Source of the DNA: a virus | Direction: 5' to 3' (one strand) | IMG/VR virus record: IMGVR_UViG_3300032893_000015 | Coordinates: 1-64,000 of that record | DNA length: 64,000 nt | Shown: one piece after another, positions 5,400 to 30,274 of the stretch | How the letters are laid out: the number at the start of each line of letters is the position of its first letter | Numbering within the stretch: the stretch's first letter is position 1 | Notes under the pieces: generated by a model | Database searches by the model: none | Told to the model about the DNA's origin: nothing | The model's input: the letters and a program-made list of their open reading frames with translations, nothing else | Position numbers and translations under genes: made by a program

Positions 5400-5825
5400 T
5401 TACGTTTCTTCGCCCGCTTGCCGCCTCGCCTCCACGCTACCACGTAGCGGCGCCTCTTCCCTCTGGCGCTCGTTGGGTGGGGGTTGGGGGGCGAGCTCCT
5501 TTTGCATCCTCAGCGTCTCTTCCGACAGGCCCAGGTGCGGCGTGACTCGCACAGCTTCCTTCACCCGTCGTTTCTCTTCTTCGACCGCTTCCCCCATCCG
5601 CTCCATCAGATACTTCGTCGCTTGCTGCCCGATGTCTTTTGCAAACTCGTCGACCTTGTCCTCGGGATTGGAAACCCGGGTTTCCAATCCCCCCCACTCC
5701 AGGTCCGCCGGTGCCGGCTCCGCCATGACACGCATCCCGAGCCGTATGATCCACCCCCCTATCCGTGCGCGCGCCTCCATGACGGCCTCGCGCACGGCCT
5801 CCCTGAGCACTTTTCTGTCGTCCAT
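5400..5825 (-). CDS. Helical hypothetical protein carrying the palindrome in frame
   Basis: 141 aa from the ATG at 5823-5825. The N-terminal helix (KVLREAVREAVMEARARIGG) is followed by LEWGGLETRVSNPEDK, where the dispersed palindrome is read in frame as LETRVSNP, and then by long charged helices (MGEAVEEEKRRVKEAVRV). It lies upstream of the portal and could be a scaffold or head accessory protein, but this is only positional. Confidence 0.65.
   Translation of the reverse strand: MDDRKVLREAVREAVMEARARIGGWIIRLGMRVMAEPAPADLEWGGLETRVSNPEDKVDEFAKDIGQQATKYLMERMGEAVEEEKRRVKEAVRVTPHLGLSEETLRMQKELAPQPPPNERQREEAPLRGSVEARRQAGEET
5664..5691. repeat. Dispersed palindrome, copy 1 (inside a gene)
   Basis: The 22-bp core at 5667-5688 is ATTGGAAACCC followed by its exact reverse complement. 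Here the symmetry extends to 28 bp with GGG/CCC on the ends. It is read in frame as ETRVSNP in the surrounding gene. Confidence 0.95.
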
Positions 5826-27262: not shown

Positions 27263-27284
27263 ATTGGAAACCCGGGTTTCCAAT
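27263..27284. repeat. Dispersed palindrome, copy 5
   Basis: The 22-bp core between the terminase stop and the next gene. Its last base is also part of the terminase stop codon. Confidence 0.95.
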
Positions 27285-30274
27285 CACCTGTCCATGACCG
27301 AGCCACCCTGTTGCCCGTCGTCCTTCTCGCGCTCCCTGGTCGTCAGGCCCCATTCCCTCGCCTGCTGCTGCGCAAAGTACGCCGCCATGAGCACGTCGTT
27401 GGTGTGCTTGTCGGGCACGAACTCGATGCACGCATCCACGAACCTCTGCACGATCGGTGGACACACCCCCCGGTCGTCGTTCGGAATGAGCCACGCCCCG
27501 TTCATGATCTCCAGGAACAACCCGGGGATGCCCATCTCCGGGTGCGCTTTCATCGCCGTCGTCGTGTGCGGCTTCACGGGCAAGCTCGCATCGTCATCCA
27601 GCGCGAACTGCCGGAAGAGATCCTGCGCGTTGTGCACGACCATGTCCTCGACGACGAACGACTCGTCATCCTCCACCTCCAAATTCCAAACGTCCATTCC
27701 CGGCTCGATATGGAACGCTGGCGATGCCAACCGCGACCACGGCTTCCCCATCTCATCCCACACGACCGCCCCGCCGCTGTTCCGGCGCTCCCCGATCCAG
27801 ATCCCACCTCGTTGCCGTTCCCAGTGTTCCCGCTCCACTCCCAACCGCATCCTGCGCCATAGCTCCCCGCTGTCTTGCGCAGGCAACCGTAGTTCGTACT
27901 GCGGGTGCCTGCCGTAGATGACCCTCCCGTCCGCGAGTGTCTTGTCCCTGGTGGGTGCCACCTTCAACGCCGGTCGCCACCCTGCCTCGAGCAACGTGGC
28001 GCGCGCAAAGAGCATCCAGTCGCGCGAGATGCTCACCCCCGAAAAGTAAAACGCCTGCCACCGGGTCCGCTGATTGTTCCTCCGCAAGCACCCGTCCCCC
28101 ATCAGCCACCCACGCACCATCGCCAGGCGCACCTCGAGTGGCCACCCGTACCACTCCGTCGGGGGACGTTTGGTGTTGCTCTTCCCGAACTCCCCGAGCA
28201 CCGCCGCCAACCCCTTGCTATGCGCCCTCACGCGCAGCGTTCCCTCGCCCTTCGCCCTTCCCGTCGCCCGCCTGCCCAACACCCGTTCCAGCGTCTCCTC
28301 GACGAACCCCACCAAGTGACTTTCCCCCTCGCCGAACGTCCAGAACGACTGGCTGTCGCTGGAGTGTCCTTCGGCCATGTAGAGCCCGAGCATCAACGCC
28401 ACCCCTTCGTCCACGGGCACCGTCTCGGCAGCAGTATTGCGGTTGCCCTCCAAGTGCAAAAACGGCGCGCTCGCCTCCCACTTCGGTGCCGCCAACGCCA
28501 CGAACGCCTCCCTGTCGGCGAACCCGCCGCTGATCCATCGTTCGGGCCCCACGGGCCGATGTTGCCCCCCCTTCCTTCCCGGCGTTCTGCCCGCCTCCCG
28601 CATCAGGAACGAATGCGTCGGCGACGCTTGCACGGCAACACCCCCCTTCGCTCTCACATGCGTCGTGAACGGCTGCGGCGTGGGCCCCATCACTTTCGTG
28701 ACCGGCCGCCATCTTCCCGCGTGCGTCCACACGAGCACCCCCGGCCGCAGCGTCTCGATGGGTCGGTACCCCCCGTGCGTGAGTACGTTCGTCCCCGCGG
28801 CGAAGCAAGCGTTGTTCTCCACACGCGCCACCTGCACGCCGTACCGGCTGATGTTGTTCTTCAGGCGGTGCATGTTCGACGGCCCGTCCCACTTCCCCGC
28901 CTCGATGTTCAGGATCTGCCTCGTCCCGTCCGGGTGACAGGCGATGGTGAAGAATGCCGTGTCGTCGTTGTGCTCGCCCACCTGTATCGCGAGGTCCACT
29001 CCCGTGAACACGATGACGTCGGGGTTCGCCTGCCAGTCGAAGCGGTCTACGAGCGTGTGGATGCCTCGCTCGCGCGCCCTCTTCTTGCAGAACTCGATCC
29101 ACTCCGGCTTGCACATCGCCGTGGTGAAGTCGAACGCCACCTGCATGAAGTCCTGATTCCACGTATGGGGCAGGAACTTGCTGGCCCGGAGCTTCTTCAG
29201 GTACCAGGCCGGATACCGCTCGGGCCACAGTGGCACCTCCCCCTTGGGGTCGGGTTCGTGCACTTTCAGCCGGCAGTACGGCGTTCCACTCGGTGCGTAG
29301 TGGTCCGTGGGCTCCAGGTCTTCGTGGTCCCAGTACGTCCCCCCGTCCACCCGCATGTACGGGTCGATGTCGTCTCGGATCTCGATGTTCCCGTCCACCT
29401 GCATGCGCAGGGTCGCGAAGCCCTTTCTGATGGCCATATGCACGACGTCCTGCGGATGCCGGGCGGTATTGAGGATGGCCACCTTGCTCTCGTCCACGTT
29501 GGTCATCGTCCCGAGCACCGACCGGTCCACGATCTCGATGACCTTGTTGCGTTGCTCCTCGGTGGCGGTGTTTTCGTCGTTGAGCAGGTCGTCGAGTATG
29601 ACCCAGTCGAGCCTCCTTCCGAGCACCGCGCTGTCGAGGCCGAGGGCAACTAGCGACGGGTCACGTATGCCCATCGGCCGGCGCACCGTGAACTTGTCCA
29701 CGGTCCACGGGTCCCCCTTCTGCGTGCTGCGTATGAGCTCGGGGAACACCAATCGCAGGCGTGGTGACTGCTCGATGTACTGCTTGCACATCGCCAGCGG
29801 CTTGAGCGCCTGCCCCTGCGTCGCGCTCATGATGGCCCCGCGTAGGTGCGGATACTTCCCCAACATGAAGAGCGTAATGGCCACGACGTCGAAGCTCTTC
29901 GAGTGGTCGCGCGGGAGCATGCTCACGCTCCTGCGGTGCGCCATGACAAAGTCCAGGTGCACGCGTTGGTGCGCCGCCGCGGTGATGTGATCGCCGGGCT
30001 TGTACCTCTTCTGCCCTCGGTCTTCCTCCGCGTCTCGGCTGAGCGTGGTGGTACTCGCGCTCTCCGCCTGCATGACGAAGTTGAAAAACGGGACGATGTT
30101 GTGGCGGGCCTTGGTGGCCCTTCGTAGCAGCAGCTCCTGGACCCTACGTACTATCGCCGGGTCCTTGCCCTTGGCCAGGAGCTCCGCTCCGCTCGGCCAC
30201 CGCGTCGGCTTGTCTCGGTGCTCGTCGCAGTCCTTCTTGTACGTGCCACAGGGGCAAAGCTCGAACGCTTCCAT
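27284..30274 (-). CDS. terL: Terminase large subunit interrupted by an intein
   Basis: 996 codons; 603 aa without the intein. This is the ATP-driven DNA packaging motor and nuclease. N-terminal CPCGTYKKDC may bind zinc. The ATPase domain has a Walker A-like RSVSMLPRDHSKSFDV and Walker B LDWVILDDLLND. The RNase H-type nuclease domain has VFTGVDLAIQVGEHNDDTAF and, near the end, KHTNDVLMAAYFAQQ. The intein (residues 490-882) sits in the nuclease domain inside VENNA-AQDLFRQF. GGGGGGA precedes the ATG. The +1 residue is Ala, which should block normal splicing. Confidence 0.92.
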   Translation of the reverse strand: MEAFELCPCGTYKKDCDEHRDKPTRWPSGAELLAKGKDPAIVRRVQELLLRRATKARHNIVPFFNFVMQAESASTTTLSRDAEEDRGQKRYKPGDHITAAAHQRVHLDFVMAHRRSVSMLPRDHSKSFDVVAITLFMLGKYPHLRGAIMSATQGQALKPLAMCKQYIEQSPRLRLVFPELIRSTQKGDPWTVDKFTVRRPMGIRDPSLVALGLDSAVLGRRLDWVILDDLLNDENTATEEQRNKVIEIVDRSVLGTMTNVDESKVAILNTARHPQDVVHMAIRKGFATLRMQVDGNIEIRDDIDPYMRVDGGTYWDHEDLEPTDHYAPSGTPYCRLKVHEPDPKGEVPLWPERYPAWYLKKLRASKFLPHTWNQDFMQVAFDFTTAMCKPEWIEFCKKRARERGIHTLVDRFDWQANPDVIVFTGVDLAIQVGEHNDDTAFFTIACHPDGTRQILNIEAGKWDGPSNMHRLKNNISRYGVQVARVENNACFAAGTNVLTHGGYRPIETLRPGVLVWTHAGRWRPVTKVMGPTPQPFTTHVRAKGGVAVQASPTHSFLMREAGRTPGRKGGQHRPVGPERWISGGFADREAFVALAAPKWEASAPFLHLEGNRNTAAETVPVDEGVALMLGLYMAEGHSSDSQSFWTFGEGESHLVGFVEETLERVLGRRATGRAKGEGTLRVRAHSKGLAAVLGEFGKSNTKRPPTEWYGWPLEVRLAMVRGWLMGDGCLRRNNQRTRWQAFYFSGVSISRDWMLFARATLLEAGWRPALKVAPTRDKTLADGRVIYGRHPQYELRLPAQDSGELWRRMRLGVEREHWERQRGGIWIGERRNSGGAVVWDEMGKPWSRLASPAFHIEPGMDVWNLEVEDDESFVVEDMVVHNAQDLFRQFALDDDASLPVKPHTTTAMKAHPEMGIPGLFLEIMNGAWLIPNDDRGVCPPIVQRFVDACIEFVPDKHTNDVLMAAYFAQQQAREWGLTTREREKDDGQQGGSVMDR
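27629..28807 (-). mobile_element. Intein with LAGLIDADG endonuclease, in TerL, Ala at +1
   Basis: 393 aa (TerL residues 490-882), the same length as the portal intein but clearly different in sequence. It starts CFAAGTNVLTHGG, has the block B PTH at ~552-554, LAGLIDADG motifs ALMLGLYMAEGH (~626-637) and VRGWLMGDGC (~720-729), and ends DMVVHN. The codon after the terminal Asn is GCG (Ala), so the Cys/Ser/Thr needed for transesterification is absent. It may splice by an unusual route, only cleave, or be a bacterial-intein-like domain. Confidence 0.88.

Follow-up and report, generated by a model that had tools for sequence, protein, structure and literature searches.

The terminase large subunit (TerL) gene of this virus carries a mobile LAGLIDADG intein that probably splices without a nucleophile at the +1 position, by aminolysis of a thioester. 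Inteins are conventionally defined as requiring a nucleophile at +1. To our knowledge, the lack of one is known mainly from bacterial intein-like (BIL) domains, whose main activity is cleavage. At least five environmental viruses, this one included, have the same TerL intein, and in all of them it is followed by Ala.

The window analysed covers the first 64,000 bases of a virus record 100,610 bases long. The ORF at 27284-30274 (-) translates as ...VARVENNA, then CFAAGTNVLTHGGYRPIE...SFVVEDMVVHN, then AQDLFRQF.... The intein starts Cys-Phe-Ala-Ala-Gly-Thr and ends Val-Val-His-Asn, confirming the first-pass annotation, which had described a Cys start, a VVHN end and GCG (Ala) as the +1 codon. 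The phrog_38 (terminase large subunit) profile matches residues 50-489 (E 8.7e-43), stopping at the first intein residue, and NF033889 matches with E 9e-19, under that model's own cut-off. Pfam Hint_2 also matches the ORF (E 3e-8), with the Hint domain beginning at residue 489. The features are as follows.

27284-30274 (-): 996-aa ORF of the TerL precursor, with the intein inserted in frame (profile matches)
28808-30274 (-): N-extein, comprising the TerL ATPase domain and the RNase H-like nuclease as far as VENNA (alignment with uninterrupted TerLs)
28808-28822 (-): VENNA, the final five N-extein residues, including the conserved acidic nuclease residue (E, codon 28817-28819); all 80 uninterrupted homologues have VENN, in part because of how they were searched for
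27629-28807 (-): intein, 393 aa, predicted Hint splicing domain with LAGLIDADG homing endonuclease (translation, Hint_2 profile, AlphaFold2 model, structure matches)
28805-28807 (-): Cys1 codon TGC; Cys is invariant in the 20 inteins and one BIL-like domain compared
28613-28624 (-): block B, residues 62-65, SPTH (Ser62, His65); TPNH in the other four members (sequence)
28364-28390 (-): LAGLIDADG motif 1, LGLYMAEGH (sequence)
28091-28114 (-): LAGLIDADG motif 2, RGWLMGDG (sequence)
27629-27700 (-): blocks F and G, ending VEDDESFVVEDMVVHN (sequence)
27644-27646 (-): residue 388, Asp, five before the terminal Asn (comparison of inteins)
27629-27634 (-): penultimate His392 and terminal Asn393 (sequence)
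27626-27628 (-): Ala+1 (GCG), first C-extein residue; Ala in all five inteins at the site
27284-27628 (-): C-extein, the remaining TerL nuclease domain (AQDLFRQF...HTNDVLMA...) and stop codon (alignment)

Junction. The insertion point lies within the nuclease active-site segment of TerL, three residues past the conserved Glu of VENN, which is presumed catalytic as in TerL nucleases generally. Ala+1 occupies the position two after the second Asn of VENN. At this site 80 uninterrupted TerL homologues from viral contigs read VENNAAQD, a unanimity that is partly by design, VENNAAQD itself being among the search patterns. TerLs found by other routes also keep the Ala and the Gln after it: Zobellviridae (E[VI]T[AV]AQ), Arthrobacter phage Kitkat (ESDAAQ) and the MAG contig L130 (VETNGAQD). 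A distant relative in the Zobellviridae alignment (L004) has ENNSGG there instead. When the flanks of one intein-bearing gene (L091) are joined and aligned with an intein-free one (L050), 600 of 600 bases align without a gap at 79.8% identity. Because of the uninterrupted homologues and this gapless joined site, the intein is exactly Cys1-Asn393 and Ala+1 is a TerL residue. The first-pass annotation had assigned this Ala to the terminase and proposed aligning uninterrupted homologues as a check; the alignment bears out the assignment and shows the junction to be exact. It had also considered a junction one residue away. Starting the intein at the Ala or Ser before Cys would leave TerL with VENN-AQD, missing a residue that every homologue has (VENN-x-AQD), and this excludes that placement.

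Family. DNA patterns and profile scans revealed four further inteins at the identical TerL site, a family that had gone unnoticed in the first-pass annotation. They lie on contigs from four other metagenomes: L090 (94 kb), L091 (18.6 kb), L094 (68 kb) and L097 (141 kb). Pairwise identity among the five inteins is 42-60%. Cys1, the block B His, the penultimate His, the terminal Asn and Ala+1 are present in all five; the block B Thr is present in four and is Ser in the window. The five +1 codons, with the window included, are GCG, GCT, GCA, GCG and GCC. The -1 residue is Ala in three members and Ser in two (L094, L097). We considered a special role for this Ser and dropped it, as intein-free TerLs with VENNSAQD occur. 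No clade member with Cys, Ser or Thr at +1 was found in scans that left +1 free (WTHxGRW, MAEGH, VENN[AS]CF); L094 was first found by a pattern that fixed Ala+1. A scan of 84,980 species genomes gave no intein of the family, a second scan gave three intein-free TerLs, and the initial single-protein scan of viral contigs gave no match. Of two matches to an HNAQD pattern, L092 is unrelated and has no open frame, and L111 is an unrelated BIL-like domain in a proline-rich protein.

These sequences dispose of a sequencing or assembly error that changed a Ser, Thr or Cys codon to GCG, a case the first-pass annotation had raised: an Ala GCN codon is one base from Ser TCN or Thr ACN, but five independent contigs with four different Ala codons, together with Ala in the uninterrupted homologues, refute it, leaving it a negligible chance.

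Phylogeny and mobility. A tree built from 20 inteins plus one BIL-like domain groups the five Ala+1 inteins in a single clade (support 97/94). Cys or Ser occupies +1 in every one of the other 15 inteins, whose host proteins include methylases, ribonucleotide reductases, DNA polymerase I and a portal protein. Because the five form one clade and all 15 relatives have Cys or Ser, Ala+1 is most simply a derived state tied to the TerL site. A second tree, of 85 TerLs, has the intein carriers dispersed between TerLs that lack the element, and five changes are needed to explain them. The L091 TerL is 87% identical to intein-free L050, and between L090 and L091 the inteins are 60% identical and the exteins 49%. 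From these three observations, the element moves horizontally between TerL genes. The Ala+1 intein is horizontally mobile and belongs to a clade specific to the VENN[A/S]^AQD site in the TerL nuclease active centre.

One member appears to separate homing from processing. The L094 intein (L094:5264-6373 (-)) has lost both LAGLIDADG acidic residues (MARGE, GAG). It keeps Cys1, TPNH and His-Asn, and its blocks F and G are 62-71% identical to those of other members. Judged from these residues, L094 is probably dead for homing and apparently competent for processing. Since splicing residues are kept despite a decayed endonuclease, selection appears to act on processing and not only on homing.

TerL is needed for DNA packaging in tailed phages. 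A profile search found one TerL per record in all five intein-bearing records, which may be incomplete. All five intein-bearing exteins retain the nuclease D-E-D carboxylates (GVDLA, VENN, H-x-x-D-x-LM) together with the ATPase lysine. With a single TerL per record and its catalytic residues kept, functional TerL is presumably produced. This weighs against a dead or decaying intein, in which the +1 residue would be a degenerative mutation and TerL would be non-functional or supplied elsewhere. The decayed L094 endonuclease fits such an account, but the other splicing residues are conserved in five members from five metagenomes, all ORFs are open, the TerL residues are intact, and a second TerL was not found in any of the five possibly incomplete records. 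We regard decay as very improbable.

Fold. We modelled the intein with its flanks using AlphaFold2. From an alignment of 13 sequences, to which distant inteins had been added, the model had pLDDT 84.7 and pTM 0.87; an earlier model from five sequences had pLDDT 62. VIA-align matched the model to the TliVMA intein 7qsu (Z 31.1, rmsd 2.8, 323 aligned) and to PI-PkoII 2cw7 (Z 28.5). The predicted fold is a standard Hint domain with a LAGLIDADG endonuclease. At this level the modelled fold has no power to tell an intein from a BIL, the Z score against the Clostridium thermocellum BIL 2lwy (Z 17.1, rmsd 1.7, 129 aligned) being close to that against the Ssp DnaB mini-intein variant 6frh (Z 18.4).

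Mechanism. The first-pass annotation held that standard splicing is unavailable at Ala+1, and we agree: with no side-chain nucleophile at +1, the usual branched intermediate cannot form. In the route we propose, Cys1 would form a thioester at the N-extein junction and the branched step would be skipped. Asn393 would cyclize with the help of His392 and release a C-extein that now begins with Ala+1. This C-extein would be kept close by the Hint fold and by the interleaving of the two TerL halves, and the alpha-amino group of Ala+1 would attack the Cys1 thioester, making the VENNA-AQDLF peptide bond directly. The homing endonuclease would copy the element into the conserved empty site. The residues that this route requires are conserved in the five inteins. 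Ligated TerL would contain the junction peptide VENNAAQDLFR in the window and VENNSAQDYILQFAR in L094; TerLs of intein-free relatives encode similar peptides. We infer both ligation itself and aminolysis as its route.

The precedent, as the first-pass annotation had noted for BILs in general, is type A BILs, which likewise have a non-nucleophilic +1. Ending in His-Asn and lacking a +1 nucleophile, they can splice, though cleavage dominates, and in the route proposed for them a thioester forms, Asn cyclizes, and the amino group released in this way attacks the thioester (PMC4031507). Another review states that type A BILs cannot ligate their flanks (PMC7765530), and a third that BIL products are predominantly cleaved (PMC7664689). 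Since the reviews disagree on BIL ligation, the precedent is itself weak. A counterpoint to splicing is that dominant cleavage, by analogy with the type A BILs studied (PMC4031507), would waste TerL. A second counterpoint is the Asn at block F position 4, where Asp is usual, although several Cys+1 relatives have Asn there too.

Three outcomes had been offered unranked by the first-pass annotation: splicing by an unusual route, cleavage only, and a terminase working in two pieces. We favour unusual-route splicing because Ala+1 is conserved in a mobile clade within the nuclease active site of a TerL detected once per record; cleavage with a two-piece TerL is the main rival. There, Cys1 thioester hydrolysis and Asn cyclization would leave two associated TerL pieces, a non-covalent heterodimer split inside the nuclease domain. 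The residues for both cleavages are all present, and BILs without a +1 nucleophile mostly cleave (PMC4031507). Phages with two TerL genes exist, e.g. Arthrobacter phage Kitkat, but the Kitkat split falls between the domains, whereas the cut here would fall three residues past the conserved nuclease Glu. Moreover, the VENNxAQD stretch is unbroken across the junction in all five members, and the flanks of an element that only cleaves would not have to match the uninterrupted protein residue for residue. Overall, we consider cleavage only to be unlikely, at roughly one chance in six. Kitkat (L122:1-3076) is in its own right a natural two-piece terminase, with separate ATPase and nuclease genes and six other annotated genes between them.

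A branched intermediate could also form if a nucleophile had escaped recognition elsewhere, such as a clade-specific Ser or Thr or an extein side chain, in a class 3-like manner. Block F can be its source, as class 3 inteins demonstrate. The comparison of inteins, however, found no clade-specific Cys, Ser or Thr near the junction (blocks F and G). At the positions of Ser93 and Thr271 each of the five Ala+1 inteins has Ser or Thr and most relatives have neither, but the Ser93 column is Thr in PolA inteins and Thr271 lies within the endonuclease; Ser383 is common to ordinary Cys+1 relatives. Block F position 4 is Asn and not Cys. The class 3 mechanism proper, which has a Cys at that position and no N-terminal nucleophile, is ruled out, Cys1 being present. 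Such a nucleophile is therefore improbable.

Returning to splicing by aminolysis, one fixed difference in block G sets the clade apart. Position 388 is Asp or Glu in all five Ala+1 inteins and Gly or Asn in all 15 Cys/Ser+1 relatives; the L111 BIL-like domain, which is also followed by Ala, has Glu. With one clade and one extra domain as its basis, a link between Asp/Glu388 and Ala+1 is suggestive. The change is a single event in a single clade, and it could serve cleavage as well as ligation. A broader proposal is that these elements are an unrecognized class of mobile intein wholly dependent on nucleophile-free ligation, tuned (perhaps by residue 388) for efficient splicing and inhabiting an active site where the host protein has to retain Ala at +1. 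We hold the chances of this to be evenly balanced.

Comparison with known systems. The intein interrupts a conserved protein in frame, alleles without it exist, and its predicted fold is that of a Hint domain. It resembles class 1 LAGLIDADG inteins (TliVMA, PI-PkoII, and the methylase inteins of EBPR siphovirus 2 gp44 and mycobacteriophage Doug gp68) in Cys1, the block B His and the terminal Asn, and in having a Hint fold with an inserted endonuclease, a conserved active-site insertion and horizontal spread. Measured against class 1, Cys1 and His-Asn are found in 5/5 members, and of block B Thr-x-x-His the His is found in 5/5 and the Thr in 4/5 (Ser in the window). The Cys, Ser or Thr at +1 that would carry the branched intermediate is Ala in 5/5. 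The relatives compared all have Cys or Ser at +1 and Gly or Asn five before the terminal Asn, whereas the TerL clade has Ala and an acidic residue.

With type A BILs (C. thermocellum BIL, PDB 2lwy) the intein shares the Hint fold, the C-terminal His-Asn and a non-nucleophilic +1. BILs sit in hypervariable regions of non-conserved proteins (PMC7765530). Unlike them, the TerL intein carries a homing endonuclease, occupies a fixed site within an enzyme that is conserved and essential, and has counterpart alleles that are empty. It thus lacks one defining class 1 feature, the +1 nucleophile, and two BIL features, the hypervariable location and the absence of an endonuclease. By its endonuclease, its conserved essential host enzyme, its empty-site counterpart and its phylogenetic grouping with ordinary LAGLIDADG inteins, it is not itself a BIL domain. 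We infer, by analogy, a ligation step like that of type A BILs in an element that endonuclease, fixed site, empty alleles and kinship mark as an intein. Some natural inteins that depart from the four-step pathway lack the N-terminal nucleophile and depend on +1; the TerL clade reverses this, keeping Cys1 and lacking a nucleophile at +1. A literature search, mostly of open-access texts and with '+1' not a searchable term, found no mobile intein with Ala+1, and an earlier report is possible.

Other phage TerL inteins are known. Those of mycobacteriophages occupy seven sites (a-g), all in the ATPase domain; the ones tested splice, and some of their endonucleases are active (mBio 2016, PMC5050341). 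They too lie in a phage TerL near catalytic motifs, but the site of the clade described here is in the nuclease domain, outside the ATPase-domain set surveyed in mycobacteriophages (PMC5050341). In Caulobacter phages CcrBL9 and CcrSC (L112:2548-5364, L113:2548-5364), we observed a TerL intein at the Walker A motif (GHAK^). It seemingly lacks Cys1, has a Cys in block F (CLCLTVEEDHSF) and Ser at +1, and is class 3-like. The L111 domain (L111:2279-4162 (+)) is a BIL-like Hint domain in a 334-kb viral contig; it ends FVVHN and is followed by AQDIP, with AQD as in TerL.

A conserved mobile Ala+1 clade in an essential viral enzyme is a natural test of efficient ligation without a nucleophilic C-extein side chain. 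If nucleophile-free ligation is true, a wider range of sites is open to intein invasion, and it suggests ligation tools whose products carry no leftover Cys, Ser or Thr.

Two further features of the window were noted. A 582-aa open frame at 27905-29653 (+), antisense to TerL and the intein, is most likely a high-GC shadow frame. The sequence ATTGGAAACCCGGGTTTCCAAT, a perfect 22-bp palindrome, has 12 exact copies in the window and 18 in the 100.6-kb record, against an expectation of 0 for its 20-bp core; none of the other loci compared contains it. The window copies (22 bp each) start at 5667, 11880, 17963, 22510, 27263, 31475, 34587, 36317, 48535, 50977, 56217 and 61783. One copy ends at the TerL stop codon, and the palindrome may be a dispersed operator, stoperator or terminator-like element.
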